From the NCBI GenBank assembly GCA_949752735.1, contig OX457043.1, forward strand, positions 3,645,867 to 3,709,866: 64,000 bases of DNA. Direction: 5' to 3'. The notes under the pieces are model-generated. The model worked only from the letters and a program-made list of their open reading frames with translations. It was not told the DNA's origin and made no database searches. Origin of the DNA: Lumbricus terrestris. Lineage: Eukaryota > Annelida > Clitellata > Crassiclitellata > Lumbricidae. A program made the translations under genes and the position numbers. Below are positions 1-50,039 of the stretch, in pieces (positions within the stretch are counted from its first letter, which is position 1; each line of letters opens with the position of its first letter).

Positions 1-1268
1 GACGTTGAGACGAAGTGTGGCCATCGGACGTTGAGTTTTCGGGACAGTTTTGCGATTCGAGGCAAAGTCTGGAGCTCGTGAGAACTATCGTCATTGTGAG
101 TGAAGTGTTTGATCGTGGATTTGAATTCTGCGAAGATCGGAGAAAGTCGCTGGACATAATCACACGGTTGATTCGGACTTTCGTGATCACTTGGTTGATT
201 CGGACGGTTGATGTGCATGCTTGCGTCGTGACACATCGCATCCATTCAAATAAGAAGACTGCTTTTGGTGAATATAACATATATATCTTGGATTCCTTGG
301 TTCCGCCTGAACCAAGAAACTTCACTGGTGTATATCATTCCACAGCTTCTTCGAAGACACTTGGTTGTCATTATACGAGGATCGGAACTTTAACAGTTTA
401 CAGAATTGGCGTATGATGAACTGGAAAAGAATTCAACACGCAAGAGAAGCTAAGAAATAAATAAAACTTATTAAATAATCAACGCCACTAGGTAGTTAGG
501 AACACTGCATAATTGTATTGTTTCTTTGACAGTATTCAATTATATTTTACATTTAAAGAATTGGTTCCTCTTTGAACTGGCCATTTAAATATACAGTAAT
601 CGTTCAATACCTGCTAAATAGACTTAAAGCTAGTAATTAGGCTACAACTATAAATTGCTTATAGGACTAAAGTTGGTTAGGCGATAGTCCGTGAATCGAT
701 GCCAGCTCAAGTCCAGGTTCATATCAAGTGAATGGGGTTCAATATTCGCAAGAAAACCTTGTACGTAGATGAATTTATGTTTCTGTAACCATTCACAGTT
801 ACGCCGATCAGCAACATACTGAATCGGCTACATTGCAGGTGTTTTGGTTAGGTAAGTATTCTTATAGTCAATTTCTATTTAAAGTCTTCGTAATTATAAT
901 ATACTTTATTAGTAATGCGACCTTTGGACCGTTCATGCTTGCGCCTTTGATTGCTTTTATTTTGCTTAGATAACAATGGATGCTCATTGCTCACCGATGC
1001 CTCAATCCTGCCGTCACATCGTTCGCATACCGTACATGACTTCATATTCTTATCGTGTGTTGTTATCAGAATCGAGGCACTCTTTGTAATCTTCGATCGT
1101 CTTGAGAGTAGGCCTACGATCAAAATACCTAATTATGGACACAAGGTAGAAGATAGGAGAAAGGCAAGAAGTTGTTTGGTCTTCTCAGCTGGAGACTTTG
1201 CACAATATTTTCGAGCCGTCAAATAAAATTGAGAAGCGTTAAATCCTATGAACGTTTCAATCCCCGTG
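1..1268. other. No recognised gene
   Basis: Nothing here could be tied to a gene. A 133-codon open frame at 15-416 (+) has no recognisable domain and no supporting splice context. Ectodomain exons of the broken receptor copy at 3.2-4.0 kb were looked for here and not found. Confidence 0.4.
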
Positions 1269-2052
1269 TAGGGCGGTATCCGATCAATACCGCGCACACA
1301 ATACCGCGCACACAATACCGCGATTTTCAATACCGCGCACCTTCAATACCGCGCACGATCGTTACCGCGCACGATCGTTACCGCGTTTGTTCAATATCCG
1401 TATTTTATCGTACGAGGGTGTTCGGTTCATCAAGCTTCTATTTCTCGCTCGTTATTCTCGTCAATCCAGCTTCTATTTCATATATAAAAATACTCTCATC
1501 CAGCTTCCATTTCTCATGCTTTATTTTCGTCAATCCAGCTTCTAATTCATATAAAAAATACCCTCATCCAGCTTCCATTTCTCATGCTTTATTTTTGTAA
1601 ATCCAGCTTCTATTTCATATAATTATAAAAAATACCTTCATCCAGCTTTTATTTCTCATGCGTTATTTTCGTCAATACGATTGTGACGCATTGAGAAATG
1701 GAATCTGGATGATGGTTTTTTACAGGTGAAATAGAAGCTCGAATGACAAAAATAAAGCATGAGAAATAAGGGCTGAATGAAGGTATTTCAATGTCTGAAA
1801 TAGAAGCTGGATTGACAAAAATAACGAGCGAGAAATAGAAGCTGGATGAAGGTATTTATAGGTATGAAATAGAAGCTGGATTGAACAAATTCGCAAACAA
1901 ACGCGGTAGGCCTAACGATCGTGCGCGGTAACGATCGTGCGCGGTATTGAAGGTGCGCGGTATTGAAAATCGCGGTATTGTGTGCACGGTATTGTGTGCG
2001 CGGTATTGTGTGCGCGGTATTGACAGTAAACCGTGTAGGGCATATCGCCCTA
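1269..2052. mobile_element. Foldback (long inverted repeat) DNA element, about 784 bp
   Basis: Nearly the whole segment is self-complementary. The left arm carries repeated AATACCGCGCAC units followed by CCAGCTTCTATTTC units, and the right arm carries the same series inverted. The outer ends read TAGGGCGGTATC and GCATATCGCCCTA, so the element appears bounded by TA. The inner AGCTTCTATTTCTC-type repeats belong to a family that also forms an array in the first intron of the UTP11 gene near 61.6-62.9 kb. There is no coding capacity, so it would be a non-autonomous foldback or Tc1/mariner-type element. The boundaries are by eye. Confidence 0.75.
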
Positions 2053-3162
2053 GATATAATCACTCGCATATGATCACCCGAACGAAATTTCCTTTGTGAA
2101 AATAGTCTATATAATATCTTCGTTCAATTGTTAGACTCTAATTATTTCCCAGCTCATTAATGGTATCTGACCATTTATGAGGTCAGAGCCGAATCACGTA
2201 TGAATGAATGTAAGTGTGTATGAATGTGTGTGTATGTAAGTAAACATGAATATTAATTACAATGATGTATGAGAATGATGTCCGTTCCTCTGTCCATCTA
2301 AACCGGATGTCTGTTGTAAATGATTTTGATAGATGTGCAACTTACAATTTCGATGGTTTGCTCTTCATTGTTGGCTTTATCGGTCATGTCTAATTCAGGT
2401 CACTTGACAGTTATTCATGCAAACATTAAAACAAAAGTTTTGTAAGGTTTTGTTTTTGTTTTTGTTTTTGTTTTGTTTTGCTTTTCAGACGTACGTGTAC
2501 TTATGTGTGGTAAATGAACCATTACTCACTAGAGTTTCTGAAATCATTTGTATCCAGTATTGAAAAGACTGTTAAGTCAGAGTCGTAGAAATGTAGTCTA
2601 GAGGTTGTTGGGGAATTATTGCGATTAGGTTAGTACAGCTGAGTCTCAATTATTTTTTTAGATCAATTGAATAAGTGACTTGAAAAGCATTGCAATTATA
2701 AGAGACTGTATAATTATATTGGTAAATTCCAATTTATCCATATTGGACAAACTTCATTCTGTGAAACAGGAATGACCATTGACAGTGATGATGCATAGAC
2801 CTGCCTACTCAAACACTTTTATTGGAGAGATACGTAGCCTACGACTAGAGCGGTGTAAATAATTGTTTGGTACGCTTTGGGGTGGCTCCCAGGCTCCTGT
2901 CGATTTTGATTTGCTCCCCCCCTCTATAGGCATACACACGCCTTTTTGATTTTCGCCCTTTCGAACATGCGCCCTTTTCATTTCGCCCTGACTAACCTAG
3001 GCCATGTATTTGTTTCTAGCAAAACTTAAAAGGAAAGATTTATGAGAGTCATAAGCAGAAAATATTTCTGGCAATTTGAGTCTATGCTTTAAAAATTATT
3101 GATCTTCATTAGAGCGAATTTTAACTTGAGTATGTTTTTTCACAAAGGAATTTTTCTTACAG

Positions 3163-4014
3163 GGTGCACAAGATTCGGGTTGATTTTACTATTCGTCATC
3201 CTTTCTGTATTTACTTCAATTGTCCTCTTTCCGACAATAATAATTGTGGCTCACTGTTGCCAGAAAAGGTGGAAAACAAGCGAAGGTAAATCTACGATTG
3301 TACTCTACTATTATATCAGAACTGATGCAGCTGAACGATGCTCAGAGTGCTGCATAGAAATGACTGCAGTAGGTTTAAACAGATAATGACGTGACTGGCT
3401 AAAGTTGGTATGCTTAACTGAATGGCAAAATCCGTTAGGTAGAGTACATGTATAATATTGTCATCAGTTCACACTTTGACACGCAAGTTTCATGTCCAGA
3501 TTCATTTATAGTTATACCCCATTGAAGTATCACAGAAATTTCAAAAAAAATCAGATATGCTGCAGCGATAGAATACGGATAGCTCTGTCATTGTTGACCT
3601 GCCTCACATACAGCGATCTGCAAACATTGCTTTTGTTTCTGGGTCACGGTGTCTTGTCCAATTGAACTGATACGAACACTGATAAATATTCATGTGAAAT
3701 CAACCTGAATAGACAACTACAGTGCACGTACGCTGTAGACCACGCACAGCTAATGAACTTTGCTGCTGAACTCTAACGCAAGCCTGAAAGCCTACAGTAG
3801 GCCTAACTGCTGAACGTTTTGCTAAAGATGTCATATTCATAATCATAGCAGAGCTATAATAGGCCGTACACTAATTTTCAAGAAAAAACACTTTCCTGCA
3901 TAATGACCGTTAAGCTTATGCTTTATTCTTCACCTAGACCCGAATTCAGACGACATTCGTGAACGTCAAGAAATTTATGTCTACGAAAACGTTGTGAAGC
4001 CGGACACTACCTGA
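3163..4014 (+). pseudogene. Partial Ig-receptor copy 1: membrane exon plus truncated tail exon
   Basis: Two exons are visible. Exon 3163-3285 (123 nt) has a TTACAG acceptor, a GTAAAT donor and phases 1-1. It encodes a transmembrane segment (LILLFVILSVFTSIVLFP) followed by basic residues, and has the same length as, and clear similarity to, exon 15069-15191 of the intact receptor downstream. Exon 3938-4014 follows a CACCTAG acceptor and encodes a tail with YENVV. Compared with the intact copy it is shifted by two bases and stops at 4012-4014. A second stop (TAA for CAA) lies further on, after a residual YESL, so the ITAM-like half is lost. No signal peptide or Ig exon was found upstream within the window. 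It could be a decayed duplicate, or the 3' end of a short-tailed receptor whose ectodomain lies before base 1. Confidence 0.7.
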
Positions 4015-7000: not shown

Positions 7001-7512
7001 TAATTCTAATTAACGACCACTTAGCCATATAGATATTTATTTAAGCATGTTTGCGCCTACAGCCTAGGCATTGTAGGCATGTCGTGATATTGCTGGAGTA
7101 ATCTTGAGGGTATCTACCTGCTATAACATAATTTAGACCTAAGTCTAACAAGTGTGTGTAGGAAGTAAATCTGTATTTTGTGCTCAAAGTTTGGAGAATG
7201 AAGAAGTCATAAATTGTGATTTGTTCATTTGTAAAAAAAACCGCTACAACCTATTTAGTACCGTAGTGTTGTTGCGAACACATACGTGAGAGTAGTTAAT
7301 AGTTTTTTAAGGATTGGTGTACCATCATTATGCACATTGCAGTCGATAGCTATGATGTAGTAAGGGCTCAAGCTTATACGCCCGACTGTAGCAACAATTT
7401 AGGAAGAAATTTGTCAGGTTGACTTAAACATCAATCAACAGAAATCGATTACGATTAGGCGATGCGAAGTAGGCCTACTATAACTCGTGAACGAGAAACA
7501 AAGAAATTGAGA
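4015..7512. other. Intergenic; one MITE and simple repeats, no gene seen
   Basis: The open frames here (for example 4603-4950 on minus and 6732-6935 on plus) have no recognisable domain and no matching splice context. A hAT-like MITE lies at 5402-5659, and an (ATCA/GTCA)n tract at about 6648-6700. The last few hundred bases should hold the promoter and 5' UTR of the receptor that starts at 7513, but no TATA box was convincing. Confidence 0.5.
5402..5659. mobile_element. hAT-like MITE, 258 bp
   Basis: The ends are CGGGCCGTAGCTAGG and the inverted CCTGGCTACGGCCTTG. They are flanked by 8-bp direct repeats ACCGAACA (5394-5401) and ACCGAACG (5660-5667), one mismatch. Inside is a palindromic GATGACT-AAAAA-AGTCATC motif shared with other short elements in this window. 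There is no coding capacity. Confidence 0.8.
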
Positions 7513-10500
7513 ATGATGAAGAAAGTCATCTGTTATATGATTTGTGTTTTCATTTCGTTAATTACAGGCAAGTCCTTTCCATTTCATAAAAATTACAATT
7601 AAACTCAACTCAATTTGGAATTATCTTGTTTCCACTTCGAACCGGTTGCTTACATTTAACAAATCTAATTACCATTCTGAGTCGCTAGCTGCTCGATTGC
7701 AAAAGGATTGGATATTTGTGTAAGAAACGATTACATAATTACAATGTTTTAAAATGATATTTCTTGATTTATGGAAGTGCATGCTTTTTCATCCTATGTG
7801 TTTCAATGAATCGATAAAATGAGATTTTGTTTTCAGACGTGAGCGGAACAATAAATCGGAAACCGTCGAACGAGGCAACGAGTATTGGCGGTCAAGCTGT
7901 CTTCAACTGCTCTAGCAATGACACAAAAAGCATCTTTTGGACATATACAACTGACTGTAACACTATCGGTTATTACCAGTTGACTGATGGTGACTGCAAT
8001 GTCAACATCAGTTACGCATCTCATTTCAGAACAGAGAAAAGTGAAAACGTTTGCAACTTGATCGTATTCAATGCATCGCTGTATCATGGTGGATGCTACG
8101 ATTGCTTCGATGGAGCTGAAGCTGAAGGGCAATTCTATGCTATGTTGGTTATCGTCGGTAGGCAATTTAAGCATAATTGCATTCATTCAACCATTTTATT
8201 TAGACTAATGACATGTTTCTAGTAAATTTCAATGCTCTTATAGCACGACACTGAGCAGTACAATTTTATAATGGTGAGTATAGGCCTAATAACGCCTGAT
8301 ATCTTCTTGTTATGAAGGATTGACCTTGAATTTCAGTTTATAATTTTTCATCAACATTTACATTTTTAAAATCTGATCAGGATAAAGCATTTTAGAAAAA
8401 CTACTAACATTTGAGATTCATATTGCGTGCTGGGAGTTTGTGTTCAGGCTTATAATTGTTGTTAACCATTATTGACTTGTGCAATCAAAGAACAACACTT
8501 GTTACATTTATGAACTGCTAGCTCTGTATTTTTTTTTTACATTAGGGGCCTAATCAAATTTAAGTCGGTTATATTGATCACTTTATGGTTTGGGCAATGT
8601 CTTCATACTCTGATCTTCTCAAATTAATTGCTTTGTCTGTCGTAATCAAACGTTTCGTGTGTCATTGCCAGCATAGCCTACATCTTATTTCCAATTCTTT
8701 TACTTTGCCCACATTAGGTCTACCGACGAAAACGTGTTCTATCTGTTTTCTATGCCGCTAGATTGCTCAAAAGCTGTCGGCACAGGCTCAATGGGTATAG
8801 GCCTACAATGGCAGATCATGAGGTTCTTATTGATCGAATTGAGGAGTAGCTTTGTCATGCAGAAATGTTTTTGATCAATTGCTATATAGGCCTAGACCTT
8901 CGTACATTTTGGCATGGTCCATGCTCTTTTCTTCTTCGGGCACTCTGGCTTAATCAGAGACCAAGTTGCCAAGTTAACAGGCACCCGTGCACGGGTCTTG
9001 GAACACTAAAAGAAAAATATAGCAAAAATAAGAGAAAATTGTCAGATTTCAGTGAATGATTCTTGAGTCGGCTAATTCTAGCTTTTGTTTAACTCTTCAT
9101 GCAACTATTTGATTTGCCGTTAATGGCATTAATTTAGATAGACTTCGTGAATCCCGAACGAACAGAGATAAGACGAAGTGCAGATTGATTGGACCTACCC
9201 AGCATTATAGGCCTACGCATTGAAGTTGATCCTAGCTACTACGTTCATTGCACCATCAGAGTGATTCCATTTAATGTAGGCCTACTGACTCTCCTACATG
9301 TATGGTCATTGATCATGACTTCGTTTTCATGTTCATTGTTCATGCCTCATGCATGAGTCTAGATTCCGAAGCAGAAGAAGTTGTTTGCTGAACCGTCTCC
9401 AGCGATGGATTATTTTAAGCCAGAAGTAAAAAAGAAGTTGTTTAGCCTGCTAATTAATCTGGTCACTGCTTCGAAAAGGCGACCAGACATGAGACACATA
9501 CAGACCCCATAAACTTATAGGAATACCGGATATAGGTTTAGTTTTGAAGCTGATTTTAGTAATTATTTCAGAAAACGAAGGTTTGTGCCTAAAGATGCGA
9601 TTTTTGCGCTTATTGCATCATTTGTGGCGTATTGATGCAGTTATATTACAATGTCCCAACTAAAAAACAAATATTTATGATCCATAAAATGTCTACAAGA
9701 ATTCATTTTGTACTGATCGAAGGATAAGTAGCTTTAAAGACCGTAATAAAACCCTGTTTCCGAACTGATGTCTTATATTTACCTAAGTCACAAAATTACT
9801 AATTTCATTTGCAATATTTCGTAATAATATGTCAGGCATCGCTCTTATTTCAGATCCAAACGCCACCATAACTCGTAATTCAACCGATTTAATTCCTGGA
9901 GATGTTCTTAAGATAACGACCAGCGTCTCCTGCAAAGGACCCGTAATTCCTTCACATTCTTCTCAGCTAACTCCGTCATTCTACTGGACGCTGCAGTCGG
10001 ATCCCAGTTGGAACATAACCAGTCACCAAGTATTACCGACAGATAGGCCTACAAGTGCATCATCTTACATAGTTGTCACAGCACAAAAGCCAGCAGCGCC
10101 TCCATATCTCTGCAATCTATTCTTCAATCCGCCAACTAATGATCGAACCGACATTGCATCTAATGCACCAACTTATGTACAGAGTTCGACGACCCAGATT
10201 TATGATGTCTCATGTGAGTAGCCTATTTAGCATATTAAATGTAGGGCATATTTCTCTAAGACCACATCATATCGTTAATTTCATATATTATACGAAACAC
10301 GCCACAAAGGTATGTGAGCTCATAGTTAATTGCTTGAGAAATGTTTTATCGCAACTTACAAAGATAAAAAAGATGTGTTCACAATAGGTCTAACTATTTA
10401 ATCGTTTATAAAACCGTGACAAGATCAGTATCAACAATCTGTCTTTGACATTTTCGGATTCGACAGCATTCGTCGTTAAATTTCGTGTACTGCGTTTATT

Positions 10501-13500
10501 TGCTTCACGACAGATGCTCCTGAGAATTTAACCATCTCAGGAGTTCCGAATCCATGTCTGCATCAACCAGTAGTACTTACATGCAGTGCATTTGGTCATC
10601 CAACGCCGGCTTATCAGTGGTTCGACTTAATCAACAACACTGTTTTATCTGAAGGCAGCACTGTTAAAATTGATGGCGGTGGATCTTACGAATGCGTTGC
10701 CTCAAACACAATTAGCGGTGTGCCTTACAACGCATCGATCAATGTCAACGTTTCCGATTGTGGTAGGTTTACTTCAAAGTAAAATCATGTTGAATTGGAC
10801 GTGTGACTGAAGCTTCAGTATTCAATTAAACTTTCTCAAGTAGTTTCAGGTAAATGTAAATGTAAATGTAAATGTAATCGCAAATTTATATAGCGGCTGT
10901 GTTATGGCTTCGACCCTGAGGGTGAGATCCTTCACCACCGCTACTCCACGTTTATATTGCGACCGAGCCACCCGCAGTAAAGATCCGAGAAATTAATCTC
11001 TGATAAACCGACCGACCGGGAATCGAACCCGGGCCGCCGGCGCGGCGAGCAGGCTACCAACCCACTCGGCCACCGAGGATCTCAGGTGCTTTCTGTTATG
11101 CTGAGATAATATTGTTATTTTAAGCAAATTGAAAATAAATATCCAACAGTTTTTGAAAGTTGCTAACTCATCCTAAGAGCTTCACGTTGATCAAACTCAG
11201 TCAGTTATGTACATGTAGTCCACAAACATATACAGTTTTAGGTAGCATTGGTTGTTGGTAACTAAGAAGAAAGCGCGAACGGGAATAGACCTATATTTCA
11301 ATTCATTGCCTCTTAATCCTCCCATTCGTTATATAACTGCGTTTTAAAGACTATTGGTATAATTTCTGGTGTTCTTTGTGCTCCAGGTTTAGCTTGTTTC
11401 TCACTACCAGTTAACAAACATAGTAGCCTAATCATCATCATCGTTATCATCATCATCGTCAATCGTCATCATCATCATTATCATGTTCTTCTTTGCCAGT
11501 TGACAGGTTCGTAGTCCGGTGGCACCACTCCTTCCGCTGTTGAGCTTCCTCTTTAGCTGCTGATAGACCTTTCCCTGTCCACATAGGCCCAGTTATAGAG
11601 AATGAATTTTTCTGCGGATAGCTTCATTGAAAATGATAGTGCCTTAAGTTGCTGGTCTAAAAAATTAAGATAGACCTAGTTTTGGCGCCATGTACAGCTT
11701 AACTTTTCATGCGAATCTTACATAGGTTCATTGTTGTCGACCCATCATACTACGACCATTATCTTTGTTTTAGAAACACCGCATAGCCTAATGTAGGCCT
11801 AAGCATAGATGCCTCAAGGGGTCCTTGTGACAGCAGTGTTGCTTCTTGCGGTGAATTTGATTCGGGCACGGCTTTCCGGAACGAGAATATGAATGGTCGT
11901 ATTCCCGAGGGAGAGCAATTGGACCTAAGTTGTTGCACGAAAAATGATTCATATAATAGCATTTTACCAATCAAATCTATTCAGCTTCTTGTATGTTACA
12001 GGTTTATTGGTTTAGTAAGCACTCTGATTTTCAAGTAGACCTATAATCCTATCCTATTCAATTTCAAGTTTCATTAAAATTTAATCCTTATTTAGCAATA
12101 ATGCGGGTCTTAGTCCGTTCATGTCTGCCCTCGACTGTTTCTGTTTGATCAAAGCGGACGATGGAATTTCACCCTCGGGTGGATACAGAAATTTTCGAGG
12201 GGGGAGGGGACAAAATTTAGGGTCTTGGTCCAGGAAAAAAGTTCGTCCGGGTAGCCGAAAAACCTGATGACCTTTCTTTTAGTCATCTGCCTCGGATTTC
12301 CCCCCAAAAGAGGCCTCGTCATAGTTTGCGAACCTCATGGGTGTGGAGTACGGACATACGGAGCTACTCACGAGGGGCCACGTCAAATTTCCGGAGCAGA
12401 ATAGCTGGTAAAAAATTAAGAAATTTCTAAATGGGGGCCATGGCCATTTTGGCCCCCCCTGGATCCGCCTCTGACCCTCGCCTCATTTGATCATGTGCGC
12501 TTGTTCTTGGTTTGTGCTATTATCAAAATCGCTCGCTTCTCCTTCGGTCTTCGTGATATTGTATCATCTCGCGTGGACAAACAAAAGAACCCAATGCAGA
12601 CAATCTATAAAACAAGGAGTTGTTTGCTCTCTTCGGCTGAACACTTTGCTCAACATTCAGAGGTCAATGGACTTCCAGTGGCACTTCGCCTAGTGTGCAG
12701 TGATCACTCCACCATTTTCTTATCCTGAAGTCTCAAGATTGTCTTATCTAGCCGAGATTGGGTCGGGACCGCTTCTGAGTAGCTAGTATTTATCGTGACG
12801 CTATATAAATGTTCCAAATAAATAAATAAATAAATAGAATCCAGAATGCGGAAGGTCCCACAAGTTTACCAATCGGAATGTAGAACATAATCCTCTTGGA
12901 CATAATAATCACCTGGACATTATTCTTCGGACATAATCCCTCGAGTTTGCGTACGACATAATGTCCTGGGAAAAAATCTCCTCGATGCAATTAGCCTAGT
13001 TTTTTTATTTAACAGGTAGCTTGAATTGCCCAGTTTTTTATTGCGTGAGTTTGTGGTGTCTGACTAGCTACTGATTACTGACAAGGTCTGGTCCAGTATG
13101 CATTTTAATGAATGGCTTGTCTATTTTTAATATATTTATTTGTTTGTATGCGCGTACGTGTAGGTGACTATGTATGCATGTGCATGTATTTAGGATTGTG
13201 GGTCTGCCTATGTATGAATGTATGCGTACATGAAATTGTATGTGGGCCTACTCGGCGAATGTGTCATTGTGTAGGCCTATATTCAGATATCTTAAGCTCT
13301 TATGTCCTGTTTCTGAATAAGTTACATTGCAGATATTCACTGTAAAATATTCCTATATGATTCTGGACGGATTAGCCTATGTTCCAGCCAGGAAGAATTT
13401 TTTAGAGAGGATGATGTTCGGGGAATGTCCTCTGACAATCTAAACTTTGATGCCTGCGTTCAATTTACACACACTAGTGTCATTAGTTTAATCATTGTTT

Positions 13501-29200: not shown

Positions 29201-30062
29201 ACAATGCATACACACGTGCACTCACGGTTCATGCATGCATACATAACATGTAAAGGCATACACAAGTAGGCTGCATAGGATTAGGTTAATCATCTTATAC
29301 TGGAAGCGTGGGCTCTCAGATTTGAAAGGAGAAATACTGATAGGCCTATCATTTCATCTCGAGACCACATTATACAGCATATTCGACTGAAGGCCCACAG
29401 AGGATTACAACTAAATTTAAACAAATAAAATTCGTGAATAGAGTGAGGTGCCGGTGCTTTGAATGATTTAAGAAGTCTCATCTCTTTCGTTTTTCCAAAT
29501 GACTTCAAGCAGGATGGTGTGCTGGTAAGACTAGGTACTGACTGCTACGAAAATAGTGCAAATGTGCACTGCCTTCTCTATCAAGAACAGCTTTTCACAT
29601 ACAACAAACAATTAGCCATTGCCTAAATCTGTGCACCAGAGAAGTGACTAACAGCCCTGTATAATAGCATTATATCATTATGATAAGATTCCTGTCATTT
29701 TATATCTTCTACGTATAAGGAATCTGTTTTGGTTGCAGTTTGCATTTGTAATCGCAATCACAATCTCCCGAGTATAGGCTACTTCAGCGTCCACAGAAGC
29801 TATTAGGTAGTGAGAGCTACCTATATAATAGCTAATTTGTGGATTTCAGTCAAAAATAAATTCGGCTATTAAAAACAATCGATAGGCAAGAGATGGCAAA
29901 ACGACAAAATGATATGATAAAGAATTTGTTGTGGATTATATAAGCCTACAAGTAGAAAGTTGTGTATAATCAAAATTAGTTTTCACGTTAGGCATATATT
30001 CGACTGAGATTCACTCAACGTTCAGATATGTTTGAACTCATTGTCAACTCATTGTAGTAGAT

Positions 30063-35369: not shown

Positions 35370-35650
35370 CCAAGGGTATCTAAGGTCTCCTCTCCATCCG
35401 TTCTGAAGAGACGGGAGTGCTCCTGGTTCCTTTCTCACAAACTCCAGTAAGCTTTTGCAGATCCAAGCATTTTGCGCATTTGATCCAGTGGTCTGGATTG
35501 GATTTACCTCTGCTTCATGATAGGCCTACTCTTACTGAAGATTTTTTAAATTCAACTCAAAACTGTACTATTTTGTCGTGCTAAAGTCGGTGCGCTTCTG
35601 GGCAGTCCCCTTGAAGAGGCGCTGTAGAAATTCTTCAATGAATGAACGAA
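35370..35650 (+). mobile_element. CR1/L2-like LINE 3' fragment
   Basis: A degraded C-terminal LINE coding stretch (LVPFSQTP...), then AGTCCCCTTGAAGAGGCGCT and a GAATGAAC tail. It lies 343 bp upstream of the glycosyltransferase start codon. Confidence 0.65.
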
Positions 35651-37220: not shown

Positions 37221-37258
<38 letters not shown>

Positions 37259-37653
37259 ATTGTATTGTATTGTATTGTATTTATAAATTTATAAAGCGCC
37301 TCTCACAGTGCACACCAATCAGAGGCGCTCCCAGTACGTTAGACCAAGAGAGAAAAAAGTAGTCTTAAGACACCGAAATGAGGCATTAGGCCCACCAGTT
37401 AATATGGAGGAATGAGTTGAAGGAGGAAGCTGGTTCCACAATGCCGGGCCAATGAGAGCAAAGGCACGGTTTTTAGCTAAGGCAGTCCTAGCTCGCGGGA
37501 CGAAGAGATCATGCCGATCTAAGGAGCGTAGCGGGCGAAGAGAAGTGGCCGAGGTCGGCAGGTGGATGAGGTCACGGAGGTACATGGGAGCTCGGCCAGT
37601 ACATGACCGGGAGATTAATGTCAGCACTTTGAGTTGAATCCTAGCAGTAAGGG

Positions 37654-37722: not shown

Positions 37723-40700
37723 GTTAAAGGCAGAGCTATAATATCGGGGCCGAAGCACACACACGCCTATACAATATCTTTGGACACGCCTCGCGTCTGC
37801 GCTCACGGTATATCAGGTATTCTAATGACGACACCAACCCTAGTTCTTATCCTAACCGACATTCGCGACGCCTAAACTAAATCTGACCCTATAAATGACA
37901 CTCACGACGCAAGTAAACTTGCGCGCTACTGTCCTTAGGTCCTCTTTCCCAGGGTACTATAAGACGCACTGTTATTGTCTTCAACTCAACTGTACCGGAT
38001 CATTTGCCACTATTTTATTGGAATGCCATCTGGAATGTCATCCCACTCTCTTAAGTGTTTCCATTCTTTCTTGATCTGTTCCTACATCTCTGTCTCTGGG
38101 GCCGTCCATAAAGTACGTCACGCTCCGGAAGGGGAGGGGGTGTAGGAAAGTGTGACAGTTTGTGACAGGGGGAGGGGGTCAGGCCATGTGTGACGTCACA
38201 CATTTATTTTTAAAATTCTTTTATTTTATTTTTTCTTAGTACCTAAAATCCGACCCGGCCCGGCCAGGCGTGTCTAAAACCCGGCCTGGCGGGATAAAAG
38301 TTGATTTCCCGTCACTATCAAAGCGTTTAGGGACACACGTCACTATCAGAGGGATTAGGGATATTATCCTAGGGTTTAGAGGGTTAGGTAAATGGTTATG
38401 TTTTTAAATTTTTGTTCGAAAGTGTGACGTACTTTAGGGGGGGGTCCGAGATTTGTGACAGTTTGTGACAGGGGGAGGGGGGTCAAAAATGGTCAAAAAT
38501 AGCGTGACGTACTCTATGGACGGCCCCTCTCCACGAAACCTCCATCTTACTCAATCACTGTATAATACTATTGATCATCACTGGAAGCGCTACTGAACTG
38601 TCACTGATGTGACCGGCACTAGACCCTATAGTTATCTATAGACCTAAGTTTAATATTGGATTGCATTTTAGTTCATGCAGGCAACGGGCGAGCCCCCGCG
38701 AGACGACTCACCTCTTCCAGAGATTGTCCGTCTGTCCGTCTGCATGCAGCGCTCTAATGCCGTGGTCGTTAGGGGGGGTTTATTCATGCAACACGTTGGG
38801 AAATTATACTGTAGAACCTCTAGAACCACTAAAACCAAACTTAGAATCTGAGGATTATTTCCACGTACGGTGTTAAAAGTTTCTTAGAACCTGAGGGATT
38901 ATTTCCACGTACGGTGTTAAAAATAGTAATGGCATCACGTCATTGTGCACTATTTGCAAACGAATTATGACGTCATCTGTTTCCGCACATGTAGATATTC
39001 ATTGTTCTTTAACGAAAAACACTGATGGGAGTCGTTTGTGAAATAAGACCGCGAAACATCGAACCGCAATAAAAAAAATACAAATACACAGCTGCAGCTT
39101 TTGCCATGAAGGCCAAAATGATTTCATCTTGTAATCAGATAAAGCCTACGTCAGCAGAAATCAAATCAAGCGAGGGGAAAATTTTCTCAATCACTATTAG
39201 CCTACTATTGTCTCCAGAGCGCCAATAAGAACGCGCCATTTCCAAAATAAATCTTTAAATAAAGGGTGATCGGCAAAGTAATCTTTACAATTACTTAATT
39301 ATACTGTTTATTCTTGTTACTTGACACCTACAGTCGCAGGCAGATTGGAGGTGATCGAGTAGCAGGCTTTGAGCTTGGAGAGACTAGCATTGCGAAAGGA
39401 TTCAATCCTTTCTCGTATATTAATAATTGGGCTAATCATAACATGTATACGTCATTTCGCTTTTGCGGGACCGAAAGGGAGCGGTCTCCATGCCGTGAGC
39501 GTGGATAGACCAGCATTTCCACTGGACTTTAATGTCGTACTCTCTTCGTTGGAAGAGCTGGGGACAGGAAAAAATGTGATGAAGTTCAGTGGACTTTTTC
39601 ATTTATTTCACAAGGACAAGCAGGTTAAACCCAAATGCGTATATGCATCTTCACGATGTCGCACCTCGAGCAGCGGTCTCCATGCTTACAATGCTATGTT
39701 ACCAAAAGACTCTTCCTTTGTCTAACTTAACCTCTTCTTCTCCTGTCTTAGAACTAAACACAAGCAGTGCATGATGCACAAGACAAGACGAGAACTGACT
39801 ATTCAGGTATAAGCTATAGGCATGCAGTCAGTTAGAAACGAAGTCAGGCAGGCAGGTGGGTAGACAGACAGACAGACAGACGGGTAGACAGACAGACAGA
39901 CAGATAGACAGACAGACAGGCATGCAGACAGACAGACACACGCGTAGCTAATAACATGTTATTGCTTGCGTGATTTTTGTATAAAAAGCTTAGGCCTACT
40001 CATTGTGTCTGTCTGTTTATTGCCCTGACATAAATTATTCGAAAGCATACAATTAAGTACACATATGCTAACTGTATTGCTATAAAATAACAAGTTTGGT
40101 TCTATGGTAGAATCTTCCATATATTACGCACGCCAAAGTAAACACGTATTTTCAACCCTCTCCTGCTGCAACTCGTAGACCTACATTTCGTGGACCCATG
40201 CGTGCGTACAAATAAGCTTCTCTACTCCCCCGCCCCGTCAAAGTGTAGGGCCTAATAAATTATTAGCCAAAGGCACCTAAAGAACATTCATCTATTTTAC
40301 TGTGGGCTACTGCTTATTTTTGCTAAACATATTTGCTAGCTAAAATGGTAGCGGTAGCAGTAGTAGCAGCAGTAATAGTAGTCAATATTTTTTCTCGCGC
40401 TTCTCGTGAGCTAACTGCATGCAGTTAGCCCACCTTTTTATAATGATTATCATTGCACAAGATTGCTTTTACAACTGCACAAAATCATTTACAACTGCAC
40501 ATGTTGTGTAGAATTGCACGAAAAGTCCTGATTAGTAGTATTAGCCTAGTAGCCTAATAGTAATCACTTCAAGAGTGACGACATGTTGCATTTCTTGCTG
40601 TTCAGGTTACCCGAGCAATAAGACGTGGTTAGGAGTGTACGCCGACTGGGATTATCAGAGCTGCAGAGGAAAGATGGTCCACAACGTTTGTGTGTTCGGT

Positions 40701-40877: not shown

Positions 40878-43559
40878 ACTTTGCAGTAACTATTACATCC
40901 CGCTGGTTTGGCACACGTACTGCCCTTTTTTCAGTTGATCTTGAGACTTTATCTCCGTTTGCGAAAACTCTTATGGTGCCATTTCTAAAATGGTCTAAAT
41001 TTAATGTGCCCCTGCGGACTAGATGGACCACCGTGGACTTAGTGGCCTATCATGTAATGAAGTGAAGGAGCTTCTAGATCAATTTTGTATACTTATGAGG
41101 TGCAATGAAGTATTTCAAAGGGCCTTTTTGTCTCAAGGAAACGTTTTGTACATAGGCTAATGGTCTGTCTATAGAGTATGTAACGTAAAGTAAGTTTGTG
41201 GAAACGCTACTGTATCGTGTAACGTGGCATGCATAAGTTAATATAAATAGACGACATTCTCATATAGCTTAATAAGCTACTGCATCATTTTCTTTTTAAT
41301 ACTCGTATAATTATTGTTAATGCAGAATAAGCTCATAGACCCAGTGACTTGGTATCCGTGGTAGGCCATAGAAAAGTATAATAGGTGATATTATGGTAAT
41401 TTATTTCTGTTAGTAAGTTACATTTTTACTAGTAGCCTAATACTCGTTTTATATTCGAAATGTAACTTAAGAATACTCATTGCATGACTAATGAAGGCAT
41501 AATATACCGTGCGTTTAATCTTGTGAGCTACGGTACAAATATTCAAAGAATGTCTGTGAATTTTGTGCATGACATAGGTCTAGGCTACTGCAGTATTGGC
41601 TAACAATGGCTGATTGATTTAACTTATCCATGAGTCAATGTGATCAGCAGACTGGTGCTTTATTCGGTAGCATTCCGAGCCTAACGACTGTGGATTTATA
41701 AGTAGACCCAACCGCGTGATGATACTGTGCAAAATGCCTATTTCGTGCCTCACGTTTGGATTTGTATTGTGTCGCATTTTATTGTATTTTTGTATTGTAT
41801 TGTCACGCGTTGCATTTCTCTTGCAATGTACTCTTTGTATTGAAACGCATTGAGCTGCATGATGTTGCTTTTCTATCCGCTTGCAATTCGTCCGAAATTC
41901 AATCCTTTAATTTATAGTGACCCTATTGGCTATTGAAAGATCACAAGCTGTACATCATATACAATTTTGCGTGCATGTATGCGTGCGCGCGCGCTAATGT
42001 GTGTGTGTGTGTGACATGTGTGACATGTGTGTGTATTAAACGAGCTTTGCCCTCGGTGAGTGAGGAAGGTCATTCCATTCGGAGGGACCTACCACAGAGA
42101 ACGCCTGGCTATTGCAGAATTGATTTTATGCAAATTATTATAGTCTGTAGTCACAACGAATAAGCCTAAGCAGGTCTTCCTAACGCAATATCAGTTTGTT
42201 TTTGGAAAATTTCACATTTTTACAGAAGTGCTATATACTGATAATTCGTGCATAAAATCAAGAGTCGTGAACGGCTGCATTGCAGCGAGATTTCGATCAA
42301 GTATTCCATAAGCAATACTATTTGCGTGGGCGCCTGCGGGAGGTGTAGAACCGTAGAAACTAATGGTCAGGGCTGTTTTTAAGGGATTTTTAGAACTCAT
42401 TCTTTCCATTCCCATCATCCATGATAAATTACTTCCAATCGGAGGACAATGACCTTTTTTGCTGGTTTTAACTTAGGCTACAGGAGTGCTTCTACAACAT
42501 TTTGTGTACAACTGCACGTTTTAAAAAAACTGCTAATTGTTACGCATGGTTACAGTAGGTTATTTATCAAAAGCGAAAAATTAAAAGTAGTTTATGTTCC
42601 TTTGTAGACGTTTAGGCTATGAGGTGGATTTCTTAGTTTCACTTTGTCCATCATTAGTAGCCTATCGTTAATTTTATGACGCGAAGAAATTAGTTAAAAA
42701 CCCAAAGAGAAGGCTATAGTAGTTAGAAAAAATGAGTGTCACTTTTCCACTTGGTCTGATGTGCGGGCGCCCTTGCGGATCGGTTACTTGAACTTCAGTT
42801 TGTGCAATGATATACTCAGCCAAGCGTGTGTTATGCTGAAGCGTTGAAACTGGTAGCCTACACTGCCCTACAGTTATAAATTGGTCCCATAGTTCAAACG
42901 CTTGGCTGCCTGTTCTATTGTGTTCTGTCGCACAGTCAGGTCAACTCAACTGAAGCGTGTCATGACTCATAAGTGTAAACGTATTGGTATTTGATATAGA
43001 CCTCATCAGAGTTCCCACCAATGAAAGTAATTTCAATCGATTAATTTCTAAATTTAATCGCGATTAATCGATTAATCCCCTAGGCTATAATGTTCTATAC
43101 CCGCGTAGGCTATATCCTCGTTATAGGAGGTGACTGGCCTACACGATGCCTTTTCCCCGAAGGTGAGTACACGCTGTACAGTGTACTGTATACCCGCGTA
43201 GCCCTCGTGTACCTCGTGTACCATCGTGTATCCTCGTGTACCCTCGTGTACAGTCCTGGACGGACGTCGATCGTTCAGCCACACACAGACGAGGTCGACG
43301 ACACCCTTGAACGGGTTTTTTCCGACCTTTTCTTTAGTCTTTTCTTTAATTTTTTTAGTCTTTTCTCAAAAACTTCCTGTAATATGTTAAAATCCGCAGT
43401 CATAAATTAGGCCTATAGAAATGTAAAAGATAATTTTTGACAGCGACTCTCAAGCACCTACAAGAAATGCGTGTCGTTTATTGTGTTTTCTGCCATTCAG
43501 GTTGCGTTATTTATAATGCAGCAAACCATGCAGCAAACTCATTGTAGGCCTAATATATA
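40878..43559. other. Intergenic, no gene recognised
   Basis: Begins with the likely 3' UTR of the glycosyltransferase. A LINE C-terminal scrap on minus at about 42030-42130 reads NSQAFSVVGPSEWNDLP. Near 43175-43255 the word CCTCGTGTA recurs several times as a short local repeat. Nothing else was identified. Confidence 0.5.
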
Positions 43560-44160: not shown

Positions 44161-44936
44161 ATTGTTATTATTTTTCGACCGTGCGGCCTAGCCTACTGAA
44201 CGCACGTTATTTTTCCTGTCACGTACGGTGAACGTAGGCCTATGCATAGGCTAGGCTACGTTCTTAGGACTATAATTATATCGTACGGCGTGGAGTCTAC
44301 GTCAACATCAATTTATTCACTCGACATGTACAATATGTAAGCCTATCAGTATCGGACTCTGTACATGGATCGCTGTCACAAACAGAGCCACAACACATGA
44401 CGTCATTCCATTCAACAGCCGCCTCGTGGTTACATAAAAATTTATATTTCTTTCGGTCAAAACATTGCAACCAATTCCGATTCTTACCACCAATTTATTT
44501 GAATCATTATAGGCCTACAACAATGCGACAGCAATAAAACTCCTAAAGCTGGCTACGCGTGCGTGGTTCCTTTCGTTAACGTAGACCAACGTTATTTCGG
44601 TAAACAACTTACGTTCGCAATCTTGTTTCTTTACAAGCATTCAGGCCAGCGCCCTAGATATTACACGAGTTTCATTCAGCTCTGTCTTGACAATAATATT
44701 ATTAGGCTACATATTCCTTTGAATAATAATTATAGGCCTAATGCAATGACAATGCGTTTGACGTTTAAACTGCCGCTCGTGAAGTAAACAAAATAAGTCT
44801 AAATCAATTTAATCGAGCGTAAGCCTGTTAGAGACACAGACAGAGACACAGACAGAGACATGTACTAAAGTGAAGAAAGACGCCACAGTAGGGACTTTGT
44901 TCTAGGTGTCACCCTATAATAATGTATTGTAGACTA

Positions 44937-47036
44937 TACCCCGCAGTCGATCGAGTCGATCGATCGAGTCGATCATAACTCGGCCAAGTCGAGTCGATCG
45001 AAAAATCGTCGACTCGATCGACTTGCAAGTCGAGTCGATCGCGAGTCTTGCCAAGTCGAGTCGATCGAAAAAACGTCGACTTGCAAGTCGAGTCGATCGT
45101 TGTTTCATCGACTCGACTTAGAAATATTTTACTTAGGCCTACTGTTTCTTGAAGACTCAAAGTGACGTAATTCAGTTTTTGCACACAAGTACAGCAAATG
45201 AACCTTTTGGCAGTGTTGGCGATTTCGTGTTAGGCCTAGTGGAACTGTGAAAGTTGACTAGCATAGACGAATTTTTTCGATTTGAGTTGAACGAGTACAG
45301 GGACGGATACAGAAATCCTGAAAGGGGGGCCAAAACTTTGGGTCTGGAGCCGACAAAAATTCCGCCGAAATTTTTTTAGTCTTTCGCCCCCAAAAATTCT
45401 AAAACCCGTGGCAACTCAAGTTATTTAAAATCCGATGACCTTTTTTTTAGTCATGTGCTACTTTCTCTTCTTCCTGTTCCAGTTGCGTTGATTTACAGCT
45501 TCTTGAAACCTGATGGGGGAGGGGCACTTCTATGCAAATCTCTGAATGGAGTGGGAACTGTGGGAGCATTGCCGGATTGCCTCCATTGGATCCACTCCTG
45601 AATGAGCATTATACAGATCTACTATTATGGGCCTGTATATATGTAGATGTTAATTTTAAGAATATAAAACGGGGCCGTTTTATGACGTCACTTCGATTAT
45701 GATACAATTCTGCAATTAAATAAGGTCACTGAGAAACGAAATTAGGCCTATTGTGACGTCACTTCGATCAGGATACAGATCTACTATCATATAATTTCAT
45801 TAATTTTGAGAATACAAAACTAGGCCTTTGCTCATTGTAACGTTACTCTGATTATGATACAATTTTACTATTGTATTAGGCTACAAGTTCTCTTTGAGAA
45901 TTAAAAAACTAGGCCTATTGTGACGTCACTTCGATTATGATACAAAATGTACTATTATAGAAGTTCATTTTGAGAATATAAACTTTATATTCCCAAAATG
46001 AACTTCTATAATAGTACATTTTGTATTATAATCAAAGTGACGTCACAATAGGCCTTGTTTATATTTTAAACAAGGCCTATTGTGACGTCACTTTGATTAT
46101 GACACAAATATACTATTATAAAAGTGCATTTGGAGAATATAAACAAGATCTAATGTGACGTCACTTCGGTTATTATACAGATCTGCCAGTATATTATGTT
46201 CATTTTGCGAATATAAAACGGGGCCTTTTATGACGGCACTTCGATTATCATACAATTATACTATTAAATAGGTTCACTGAGAAAATGAAATTAGGTCTAT
46301 TATGGCGTCATTTCGATTATGATACAGATCTACGGTCATATTATTTCATTTTCATAATACAAAACTAGGGCTGTTTAAACGCAGCATCGCTCTGATGATG
46401 AAACAAATCTATTATTATACGTCTAGTATGAGAATATAAAAACTAGGCCCATTGTGACGTCACTTCGATCATGACACAGACCTGTTATTAAAGAAGTTCA
46501 TTTTGAGAATTGTGACTGACTTCGATTATGATACAGATCTACTATTATAGAAGTACATTTTGAGAGTGCAAACTAGGTCTATTGTGACGTCACTTCGATT
46601 ATTACACAGATCTACCGTAGGCCTAATAATTATTGAAGTTCATTTACAGAATCTAAAACGAGGCCTAATGTGAAGGCACTACGCTTACAGTGCAAATCTA
46701 CTATAAATTCACTGAGAATACGAAATTAGACTTATTGTTACGTGACACAGATTATGACACAGATCTACTATCGTATAATTTCATTTTGAGATCACTTAAC
46801 TGCAAGAGACAAAAACTGGGTCAAGTCGACGCGAAGTCGATCGAGTCGATCGTTGGCCGAGTCAAGTCGATCGAGTCGTCGAGAGGTCGGCGAGTCAACG
46901 AAGTCGATCGAGTCGATCGTCGGCCGAGCCAAGTCGATCGAGTCGTCGAGAGGTCGGCGAGTCGACGAAGTCGATCGAGTCGATCGTCGCGCTAGCCAAG
47001 TCGATCGTAGCCCACGACTCGATCGACTGCGGGGTA
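44937..47036. mobile_element. 2.1-kb inverted-repeat element carrying a TGACGTCA-rich array
   Basis: Ends TACCCCGCAGTCGATCGAG and the inverted CTCGATCGACTGCGGGGTA, bounded by TA, followed inward by dense AGTCGATCG repeats on both sides. The interior (about 45640-46780) is an irregular tandem array of roughly 65-90 bp units: TTCATTTTGAGAATATAAA, then CTAGGCCTATTGTGACGTCA and CTTCGATTATGATACA. Units around 45960-46060 are inverted and make a local palindrome. No coding capacity. A nested hAT MITE lies at 45298-45600. Confidence 0.8.
45298..45600. mobile_element. hAT-like MITE nested in the inverted-repeat element
   Basis: Termini CAGGGACGGATACAG and the inverted TTGGATCCACTCCTG. 8-bp flanks AACGAGTA and AATGAGCA (two mismatches). 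Carries GATGACC-T8-AGTCAT. Confidence 0.65.
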
Positions 47037-48053
47037 TATGTAGACCTATTTTCGTAGGCTATTGCATTACGCTATGCCATATTGCAATGTAGGCCAAAGC
47101 CTAATAATTAGAATTATTATAGTATTGTAGCCTATAGTAGTCTATTAGGCATAATTATTATGATAGGCTACTGCGCTGTTCGAGATTCTATCTTATTCTA
47201 TCGCATTGCGCTGCCCGTCGTCGTTGTGCTGAAAATGTGTCAATATTATTGCATCGAAAAGAAATAATAATATTATTGCAAAGGAACAATTTTCAAAACA
47301 CGGTCTAGGCTATATCCCCGATTGACTGCATGAGCACTTGATTGCCTGTAGGCACCATGAACGTATAGGCCTACCTCTGCACTGTGACGTACGATGGTGT
47401 TTGACTAACACCACTTTTGAAACTGGTGGTGACTGTCACAGTGTCACCATCATTGCTAAAACCTGTGCTTAGGCCTAAATATTTTTGCGAAACATCGAGT
47501 CATTTGCTCTGAGCCTCTGAGGCAAGTTCAAACGATACCGGTAGGGGGGTAGGCCTAGCTATGCCTAGGCCTACATGGTGGCTGTGTGTTCCTACACAAT
47601 TAACAAGTCGTGCTAACCACTGCCGCTACTCTAACCAGTCTCCAAGGCCGTAGCCAGGATTTTATTTCGGGGGGTGTATTCTCAGACTTTTAGCAAACCT
47701 ACAAACAACTGAATTTGGAGTAACCTCGCGATCTCTCATAGCGGCTGCGGTGTTTGATCTAGGCCCTAATTTAATGTAAAAGTATCACCTAAAAAATAAG
47801 AGTCTCAAAATAAAAAGGTCGTCAGAAATTTTGGTCGATTAAAATTGCTGGTTGTGAAGATTTTAAATTTTCTTTTAAAAAGCCCTGGAAAAGAGAAGCC
47901 TATTTTACGCACGCATAGAGAAGTGTTTCCACAAAATGTACGTTCGAGTTGCAAAGGTGAAGAGTAAAAAATTCGATTTTTGGCGTAGGCCTACGTTAGG
48001 CCTATAATAATATGGAGAGCCCTTAATTTACGTACTGGACATGCGAGTACCGG
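47037..48053. other. Intergenic, no gene recognised
   Basis: Short frames only. A single-ended CCGTAGCCAGGATTTTATTT near 47647 looks like one terminus of the MITE family at 5402-5659, with its partner end missing. Confidence 0.45.
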
Positions 48054-48382: not shown

Positions 48383-48899
48383 AGCACCGGGGGAGGGGGC
48401 AGATTCGAACGATCTATAGAACAGAGGTGCATATGACGCGCAACTTAAACAGTAGGCCTACTGGGCCTGCAGGTTAATAATTATATACTTCGTTTATTCA
48501 AGAAAAACTAAGTTGACACACCGCAACTTATTGCATGAAACAAAAACAAAACAAAAGTATTTTAAATAAGTAAATAGGCTAAAGTAAATTTTAAAGGTTG
48601 TTGGTTTGGTCCATTTGTTATTAGGTAGGCCTACCGTAACAGAGTAGGCCCTACCGGGTAACTTATAGGCTAAGAGAAACGCAAACATAGCCTACAAGAA
48701 ATGAATAGGAGAGACAAAGACAGGCAGAAAGACGCTGGTCTGCAGGCCTACATGGCAGATGGGCGAAAGATGTATAGCCTACAAAGAAAACAGATAAACA
48801 GACAGTGTTCAGACATAAAGACAAACAGGACGGAAGAGATACAGGCAAAGTACGATACTTATTTTTACAGAAGTATTGTATTGTTATCTATAGCCTACC

Positions 48900-49260
48900 A
48901 TTATAAAGAGCATCTCGAAGAATGACCATTCAGAGGCGTTTTCAGCATGAAAAACTCCGGGGAAAAAAGAAGTTTTGTCAAAGAACGAGAGCCATAAGGA
49001 AAGCGAGTCATTAGTTTAGTCCATAGTGCGAGAGGAAAGTCATTCCAAATGGATGGACCAACCACAGTAAACGCCCGACATTGGGCAAGAGCAGTCCTAG
49101 TCCTGGAAACAAACAGATCAAGTTGATCTGAAGAACACATTGAGTGAGATGAAGATGCAGATTAGGGTTTTTGCATAGAGTTTGAGAGGTAGGCCTATTT
49201 AGGGGCATTTCCCAGCAGTGCTTTGAAGACCAGACAGAGCGTGAAGTGATAGGCAATCAG
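48900..49260 (-). mobile_element. CR1/L2-like LINE 3' fragment
   Basis: On minus, 48901-49140 reads LDLFVSRTRTALAQCRAFTV then VGPSIWNDFP, the LINE C-terminal signature. 5'-truncated and degraded. Confidence 0.75.
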
Positions 49261-49507
49261 TGTAAGTCTAGAAGCAGACTGACGTGCCTTCGTCAAAGTG
49301 CGGTATGAAGTTGTGCAGACAAAATACGCTTGTGCTTCTTTTAGATTTTTTATAAAGCATCACTGAAGACAGCAACGGTTGAGCGCCTTTCCGTCTTGAC
49401 TGTATTCTACGTTAGTTCCGTATGAAGGCACAGTAGCGTGAAATTCTGCCCTCAAAGCAGGACGTTGACATCACCGTTACGCTCGTGCAAGCTTCGAGAC
49501 AATCATC

Positions 49508-49956
49508 TAGGGGAAGTAGGGGCGAGACGGACCCCGTAACGGATTTCTGGTTTTAAGACACCATAAACGTGCTTCACGGGCACAAATTTTCTTGTTAGCC
49601 TACTCGTAGCTTATACAGTAAGATAGCTAAGGGAAGCACAAATTTAATTGCATCCTTTTTGACAATAAGATTTTAAAATTTTAAAATTTAGTGATAATGG
49701 TCATCTTGCCTCCATTATGGGGCAAGATGGACCAATCTAATAAATCATGCCCCACGCAGTAATTAGTCTTTCATCATAGCATGTTCTGAAACTTCTGATC
49801 ACATGCAGAATACTATTTTATGCACAAATGTGGTCGTCTATAATGTAAAATAGTGAGAATAACGCAGAAGTTACATTGGACTAGATTTTTTCAATTTTAG
49901 GCGAGTTTAGTGGTCCATCTTGCCTGAAGGGTCCATCTCGCCTCTACTTCCCCCTA
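49508..49956. mobile_element. TA-flanked MITE, about 449 bp
   Basis: Ends TAGGGGAAGTAGGGGCGAGA and the inverted CTCGCCTCTACTTCCCCCTA. A further GGGGCAAGATGGACC lies inside. TA at both borders fits a Tc1/mariner-type MITE. Confidence 0.8.
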
Positions 49957-50039
49957 CGTGTTCAAGCGTTATTGCTGTTTAACGACACTGCCATTGCAAA
50001 GATGATTGATGTCGCCCTCCTCCTTTATTCAGGCGTGGG

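Follow-up and report, generated by a model that had tools for sequence, protein, structure and literature searches.

Abundant GGC and GGCC insertions at TA sites in the genome of the earthworm Lumbricus terrestris: candidate footprints of transposon excision

Introduction

Transposons of the Tc1/mariner type (Sleeping Beauty, mariner, Tc1 and the Stowaway miniature inverted-repeat transposable elements, MITEs) leave footprints in which the 2 bp TA is doubled around a few nucleotides (PMC7827188, PMC4561436). The Sleeping Beauty and mariner transposases leave 3 nt 3' overhangs at the donor site, which explain these products, and the footprints made by non-homologous end joining equal the overhangs (PMC7827188). 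The PIF/Harbinger and ISL2EU elements are also characterized by short AT-rich target duplications. In cyanobacteria a palindromic octamer, HIP1 (GCGATCGC), is strongly over-represented (PMC4390886), and a genome comparison of Asian with African rice also scores transposon excision scars (PMC4423477). Here we analyse a palindromic octamer, TAGGCCTA, and two related heptamers, TAGGCTA and TAGCCTA, in a 64,000 nt stretch of the earthworm Lumbricus terrestris (assembly wcLumTerr1.1, C9:3645867-3709866; hereafter the window) and in the genome as a whole (1,056,305,194 bases in 331 contigs). C9 (56.59 Mb) is chromosome 8 of this assembly (PMC10799228). Sequence comparisons strongly support these words as discrete insertions at TA, with the TA duplicated.

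Results

Abundance of the words

The window contains 52 copies of TAGGCCTA where base composition predicts 0.84, and only two CA-repeat 8-mers rank higher. The original prediction, made from the letters of the window, of about 50 octamers in the first 50 kb against about one by chance is thus borne out, as is its mention of many TAGGCTA and TAGCCTA (38 and 37, together 75). In the whole genome TAGGCCTA occurs 354,398 times, against 8,418 for the same letters reversed; because the reversed word contains a CpG, a first-order Markov expectation from dinucleotides is the fairer comparison. Calculated for 18 stretches of 10 kb, one from each of the 18 large contigs, it gives 61 observed against 1.54 expected, an approximately 40-fold excess that is unevenly spread (0 to 11 copies per stretch). 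Counting the octamer genome-wide, as the proposed check included, therefore confirms the excess, and TAGGCCTA shares with iterated palindromes of the HIP1 kind the property of an over-represented palindromic octamer. In number the octamers equal about 0.5% of TA dinucleotides. TAGGCTA (229,626) and TAGCCTA (230,724) together occur 460,350 times; the sample predicts about 88,000, which puts about 372,000 above background. That the two counts are equal is no evidence, since the words are reverse complements of each other. Other TA-N4-TA words are also enriched in a masked 259 kb pool, namely TACATGTA (7.0-fold), TACCGGTA (8.4-fold) and TAGGTCTA (6.0-fold). We considered TAGGTCTA/TAGACCTA (6.4-fold; about 6-fold in pools of 259-322 kb) as a third class and rejected it, as it lies partly in a tandem repeat at 45.7-46.6 kb of the window and its flank preference is one-sided; the tandem repeat accounts for no more than part of its enrichment.

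Insertion at TA in simple arrays

In (TA)n arrays the pattern TATATATA-SSSS-TATATATA (S, G or C) has 351 places, and the 50 listed comprise 44 GGCC, 3 CCGG, 1 CGGG, 1 GCGC and 1 CGCG. The pattern TATATATA-SSS-TATATATA has 408 places, with 43 GGC/GCC, 4 CCG/CGG and 3 CGC among the 50 listed. Extrapolated to the totals, this corresponds to about 309 GGCC and 351 GGC/GCC; all array listings take the places in contig order from the start and are thus no random sample, and the patterns detect inserts of G and C only. In (AAT)n arrays, AATAATAATA-SSSS-NN-ATAATAATAA has 138 places, and the 100 listed are 88 GGCC followed by TA, 9 CCGG followed by TA, 2 GGCC followed by CA and 1 GGCC followed by TT; this pattern selects for inserts that start with four G/C, and about six of the listed places adjoin another within one array and are not independent. 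The (AAT)n case shows a six-base insert with a duplicated TA. With 3-4 nt plus the TA duplication, the inserts have no internal part bordered by terminal inverted repeats tens of bases long, as a MITE or other transposable element would.

Insertion at TA in paralogues and transposon copies

Self-alignment of a pool of approximately 310 kb (117,006 alignment columns, 12,282 mismatches) contains 25 distinct 6 bp gaps, eight of which are GGCCTA at TA (six distinct events, as three of the eight are the same site in locus L035), and 21 gaps of 5 bp, four of which are TA plus GGC or GCC (three distinct events). In a strict test each word with an alignable homologue was scored for exactly TA in that homologue. 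This is the case for 5 of 20 TAGGCCTA loci compared with 6 of 400 other TA-N4-TA words (Fisher p = 5.6e-5), and for 2 of 10 TAGGCTA and 2 of 12 TAGCCTA (4/22) compared with 1 of 221 other TA-N3-TA words (Fisher p = 2.4e-4); pooled, 9 of 42 words and 7 of 621 controls have an empty TA (Fisher p = 5.7e-8), related copies not being fully independent. The test overlooked two clean cases, at 9208 and 9277 of the window, that are visible in a separate alignment. Clean examples are thus found at 3798, 7470, 9208 and 9277 of the window and in loci L035, L016, L019 and L012. Locus L035 carries CCACCGTG-TAGGCCTA-TCCGACC where four transposon copies 98.8-99.3% identical (L031, L032, L033 and L034) have TA; judged from the alignment, this one of the five copies read gained its TAGGCCTA recently. 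In a 60 bp tandem array at L017 one unit has TAGGCCTA, which BLAST pairs with other units as TAAG--TA (16 alignments); read by eye this is possibly another empty TA site, and it is left out of the counts.

The view of the original prediction that the octamer is a discrete insertion at TA is therefore supported by the AAT and TA arrays, the paralogues and the copies of L035. In all three kinds of evidence the TA target is doubled around a short insert, as in a Tc1/mariner footprint. By our criterion iterated palindromes of the HIP1 kind would arise without insertion, whereas the paralogue test and the AAT arrays show an insertion here. The six pairs of sites on which the prediction was built fared unevenly on re-alignment: the foldback arms (1379 vs 1907) differ by a clean 6 bp gap exactly at TA, 3131 vs 15034 is clean save for one neighbouring mismatch, and the CATA array at 13806 cleanly changes TA to TAGCCTA. 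The stretches at 3306 and 15199 are unpaired by the alignment, leaving that comparison ambiguous. The remaining two pairs do not stand. The counterpart of 10044 near 18729 is ACAACGAACACAAG, which has no TA at the place in question and so is not a clean TA site, and 20487 vs 21991 shows an irregular 9 bp gap with no clean TA site.

The words of the window discussed here are listed below by window coordinates; the octamers carry no strand, and lines that give only TAGGCCTA are exact matches.

1109..1116, TAGGCCTA (exact match); one alignable homologue with the same word
1907..1914, TAGGCCTA; opposite foldback arm has TA at 1379-1380 (6 bp gap exactly at TA)
3798..3805, TAGGCCTA; upstream paralogue has TA (flank 27/28)
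7470..7477, TAGGCCTA; upstream paralogue has TA (flank 26/28)
8281..8288, TAGGCCTA
8798..8805, TAGGCCTA; homologue aligns at another length, no clean TA
8887..8894, TAGGCCTA
9208..9215, TAGGCCTA; paralogue about 24 kb upstream has TA (flank 20/20 identical)
9277..9284, TAGGCCTA; same paralogue as for 9208 has TA (flank 20/20 identical)
10044..10051, TAGGCCTA in the frame of an immunoglobulin (Ig)-like-looking exon; aligned paralogues lack the word but have no clean TA
11794..11801, TAGGCCTA
13272..13279, TAGGCCTA
13806..13812, + strand, TAGCCTA interrupting a (CATA)n array; insert of 5 bp, with TA on both sides of GCC (re-alignment)
15034..15041, TAGGCCTA; paralogous intron has TA at 3131-3132 (re-alignment)
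15199..15206, TAGGCCTA (exact match); comparison with 3306 ambiguous
15361..15368, TAGGCCTA
17290..17297, TAGGCCTA
17863..17870, TAGGCCTA
18166..18173, TAGGCCTA
18194..18201, TAGGCCTA
18209..18216, TAGGCCTA
19225..19232, TAGGCCTA
21905..21912, TAGGCCTA
21991..21997, + strand, TAGGCTA (exact match); no clean TA site on re-alignment with 20487
22307..22314, TAGGCCTA
23071..23084, TAGGCCTAGGCCTA (exact match); two overlapping octamers starting at 23071 and 23077
23939..23946, TAGGCCTA
29341..29348, TAGGCCTA
31375..31382, TAGGCCTA
33125..33132, TAGGCCTA
34301..34308, TAGGCCTA
34581..34588, TAGGCCTA
35521..35528, TAGGCCTA
39991..39998, TAGGCCTA
43408..43415, TAGGCCTA
43545..43552, TAGGCCTA
44235..44242, TAGGCCTA
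44510..44517, TAGGCCTA
44733..44740, TAGGCCTA
45134..45141, TAGGCCTA
45231..45238, TAGGCCTA
45743..45750, TAGGCCTA as unit word of a diverged tandem repeat with TAGGTCTA variants (repeat and homologue alignment)
45910..45917, TAGGCCTA in the 45.7-46.6 kb tandem repeat; homologues differ by substitution (homologue alignment)
46618..46625, TAGGCCTA in the 45.7-46.6 kb tandem-repeat region (exact match)
47366..47373, TAGGCCTA
47470..47477, TAGGCCTA
47550..47557, TAGGCCTA
47566..47573, TAGGCCTA
47986..47993, TAGGCCTA
47997..48004, TAGGCCTA
48453..48460, TAGGCCTA
48626..48633, TAGGCCTA
49190..49197, TAGGCCTA (exact match), the last one before 64000

The double word TAGGCCTAGGCCTA occurs three times in the 310 kb pool, and the copy at 23071..23084 would be explained by insertion at a TA of an earlier octamer. 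The octamer at 45743..45750 is probably not an independent insertion, because it lies within a diverged tandem repeat.

Target preference, distribution and age

The base preceding the TA (position -1) is G at 40-48% of TAGGCCTA and 39-41% of TAGGCTA compared with 19% of all TA, and C at 7-9% of both words compared with 18% of all TA. This G/C skew is present on both sides, so that both words share a palindromic R-TA-Y target preference, which TAGGTA and TAATTA lack; beyond -1 the bases outside the word are near random. The octamer and the heptamers also covary regionally (rho = 0.55 over 94 bins of 2.5 kb, 0.68 over 46 bins of 5 kb). Because of the common target preference, this covariation and the similar numbers of the two classes, TAGGCCTA, TAGGCTA and TAGCCTA are best read as products of one process or source.

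The octamers of the window span 1109-49197, and none of the 52 falls in the last 14.8 kb (49.2-64 kb; p approximately 1e-6 under an even spread). The bins of 2.5 kb hold 0.21 octamers each in the CpG-poorest fifth and 1.26-1.74 in the others. Octamer number correlates with CpG observed/expected (rho = 0.32, p = 0.0015; with the window excluded 0.26, p = 0.03), as does that of the heptamers (rho = 0.20, p = 0.05). The CpG-poor stretch at 52-64 kb of the window holds two words and the remainder 125, and the lack of TAGGCCTA throughout 49198-64000 (14.8 kb) is consistent with its scarcity in CpG-poor bins.

The 24 single-substitution neighbours of TAGGCCTA show an excess of about 180 against 305 intact words (both-strand counts), mainly transitions, or about 100 when TAGGTCTA/TAGACCTA are left out. 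If the neighbours are the decay of one burst, the ratio of neighbours to intact words being about 8 times the divergence, this would by our estimate amount roughly to 0.04-0.07 substitutions per site. Together with the gain at L035, the decay of the neighbours indicates that the process ran into the recent past.

A model of excision and repair

We consider it fairly probable that the words are repaired breaks with 3 nt GGC overhangs, that is, excision footprints of the Tc1/mariner type. A double-strand break would have opened a TA site in such a way that each of the two ends kept its TA intact, followed by the 3 nt 3' overhang GGC (5'-...TAGGC-3'), and host repair would then have joined them. 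Overlap across all three bases, with one G.G mismatch, would yield TAGGCTA or TAGCCTA, while a one-base slip would allow perfect GC.GC pairing (2 nt) and yield TAGGCCTA. The departure of a Tc1/mariner-type cut-and-paste transposon with the ends TA-GGC...GCC-TA would produce this state. We infer the overhang structure and the repair routes from the products, and, because no element ending in TAGGC...GCCTA was found in the sequence examined, we infer the source as well, a GGC-ended mobile element that would be of low copy number with high turnover, or recently lost, or perhaps missing from this individual.

The dominance of GGC/GCC and GGCC among the G/C inserts of TA arrays is consistent with products of 3 nt 3' overhangs. 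The two classes are of similar size genome-wide (354,398 octamers and approximately 372,000 heptamers after background), and the 2 nt form TAGGTA is not enriched (98 vs 112 expected). Families of TA-inserting transposases are present in the same genome, with 147 matches to PF13358 among the 150 scored of 2198 candidates and 16 matches to PF01359 among 20 candidates. CCGG with CCG/CGG, the rarer insert class seen at 9 of the 100 listed AAT-array places and, in the TA arrays, at 3 (CCGG) and 4 (CCG/CGG) of the 50 listed of each pattern, obeys the same rule as GGCC with GGC, as a further, CCG-ended element would predict; these inserts are probably scars of such an element. The foldback at 1271-2030 of the window was considered as a TA-CCG element and rejected, since its empty paralogue shows an 8 bp target duplication, CCGTGTAG. 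That empty paralogue lies upstream, at region 16282, and related pieces lie at 61.9 and 62.8 kb.

Several results weigh against excision of a GGC-ended element. The 259 kb scan found no convincing inverted-repeat element of the form TAGGC...GCCTA (best, 19/30 end bases), inverted-repeat pairs beginning GGCCTA being the octamers themselves, and none of 28 long insertions between paralogues has such ends by eye. Ten transposase loci (L031-L040) were surveyed for their ends, the 16 mariner matches to PF01359 lying outside this survey: six (L031-L036) show no clear TA-flanked GGC ends and four Tc1-like elements (L037-L040) end in TA-CAGT or close variants. Among 100 listed of the 1,760 TATATATAGGC junctions with TA arrays, no terminal sequence occurs more than twice, in a pattern that excludes T from the next two positions. 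TACAGTA, the footprint expected of CAGT-ended elements, is just 1.3-fold enriched though such elements are present. No copy of TAGGCGCCTA, which blunt fill-in would give, was observed (0.28 expected, a weak test), and TAGGCCCTA (reverse complement TAGGGCCTA) is enriched (11 vs 1.38 expected), which a simple overhang model does not predict. At 15 of the 20 alignable TAGGCCTA loci the homologue lacks an exact TA (six have the same word only, nine are otherwise, among them empty sites with AA or CA), as it does at 18 of the 22 heptamer loci (12 same word only, six otherwise). Finally, in the control TAGCTA the -1 base is G at 24% on one side and 35% on the other, and C is not depleted, so part of the R-TA-Y preference may occur in other TA words. 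Taken as a whole, the footprint reading of the original prediction is the best one and fits the anatomy, both predicted words, their similar numbers and their common target preference, and TA-inserting transposase families are present; the predicted source with TAGGC...GCCTA ends was not found in the sequence examined.

Many Harbinger elements begin with GG or GGC. As sources, Harbinger and ISL2EU elements were rejected since their target duplication is unlike TA: a PIF/Harbinger or ISL2EU scar would show a TWA or AT duplication, whereas the target here is TA, with T at -1 in only 17-19% of TAGGCCTA. Two of the loci with TA-CAGT or similar ends, L039 and L040, carry 587 bp inverted copies that overlap the transposase frame.

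Alternative origins

The words could instead be made directly, by a TA-specific enzyme such as a domesticated transposase that cuts TA, after which repair or the enzyme itself inserts GGC or GGCC, no large element ever having been at the site and the short sequence being the spreading product. The very high copy number, the uniformity of the inserts (in AAT arrays, one of two palindromic words followed by TA makes up 97 of the 100 listed) and the lack of a source element in the sequence examined speak for such micro-insertion. We nevertheless think it unlikely, since products of 3 nt and 4 nt follow simply from a 3 nt transposon overhang (as we deduce from PMC7827188), and a second class, CCGG/CCG, with the same logic suggests several elements and not one enzyme. 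In the strongest form of this idea, such an enzyme would place GGC or GGCC between duplicated TAs again and again across an animal genome, with no large mobile element at the site. The 3-4 nt sequence would then be the smallest spreading insert known, each copy creating new TA targets; we regard this as somewhat less likely still. We know of no enzyme with such an activity. Templated synthesis, in which broken ends at TA would be extended with a set sequence by a polymerase, telomerase-like or other, and then joined, would account for a fixed short sequence at breaks, for the enrichment of TAGGCCCTA/TAGGGCCTA and for the TATATATAGGCCC(C)TA junctions among the 100 listed TA-array junctions. It is improbable, as it explains neither the TA duplication on both sides nor the symmetrical R-TA-Y preference.

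The 40-fold over-representation of a palindromic octamer is what a HIP1-like motif would show if point mutation had created it and selection or mutation bias maintained it. We give this very little credence, because arrays and paralogues show insertion, and because the excess of single-substitution neighbours consists mainly of transitions, as the decay of an inserted word would give. It would be just as surprising if dispersed or tandem repeats had carried and multiplied the words. Three window octamers do lie in one diverged tandem-repeat region (45.7-46.6 kb), and the homologue holds just the same word at the 6/20 octamer and 12/22 heptamer loci noted above, but the near-random bases beyond -1 do not fit repeat carriage, and sequence shared between loci is poorer in words (11 in 21.6 kb) than the remainder (250 in 231.7 kb).

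Other features of the window

The diverged tandem repeat at 45644-46785 has a period of about 70 bp, its unit containing the palindrome TGACGTCA and TAGGCCTA/TAGGTCTA; a 67 bp tandem repeat at 46832-46965 is rich in GTCGATCG/TCGA words. Across C9:3605867-3709866 (loci L027-L030 plus the window) there are duplicated stretches approximately 24-25 kb apart and 83-91% identical, which include the frames that the original prediction took for an Ig-type receptor; two of these frames have no Pfam match. An open frame of 433 residues at 35993-37294 encodes a Core-2/I-branching enzyme (PF02485) whose best-scoring named relatives include annelids, next to two turtle entries. The open frame of 528 residues at 26862-28448 has a reverse transcriptase domain (PF00078) and is by our reading a non-LTR-type (long terminal repeat) retroelement.

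Discussion

If the words are excision scars, they would be the record of an element that visited the genome about 0.7 million times by transposition and is now almost absent from the examined part of the assembly. They would provide a direct count of cut-and-paste activity that leaves no copies, and would allow its target preference and the outcomes of repair to be read on a large scale. If no element stands behind them, they would reflect an insertion activity of a new kind. With its six added bases a TAGGCCTA scar leaves a reading frame intact (one lies in the Ig-like frame at 10044 of the window); the five added with TAGGCTA cause a frameshift. Being uniform, insertions of 5-6 bp might also be used as markers in the phylogenetics and population studies of earthworms. 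No account of such mass uniform insertions was found in the literature, judged by titles and the beginnings of abstracts in partial listings. That TA transposons leave footprints is well established; within the literature searched, their number and uniformity in one animal genome are new.

The earthworm words differ from described Tc1/mariner footprints in that about 0.7 million near-identical scars occur in one genome, with no matching GGC-ended element found, and in that GGCC, the product of 2 nt microhomology, roughly equals the full-overlap product in number. The scar typical of Tc1 itself is +4 (PMC13148408), whereas the earthworm scars are +5 and +6. The target duplications of PIF/Harbinger and ISL2EU are TWA and AT (PMC4482050) compared with TA in the earthworm, and PIF/Harbinger MITEs generally excise precisely (PMC4561436). 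Unlike HIP1, the earthworm octamer arises by insertion at TA, and its host is an animal. The scars scored between the rice genomes are diverse (8 perfect of 94 putative excisions; PMC4423477), whereas those of the earthworm are mostly of two uniform words.

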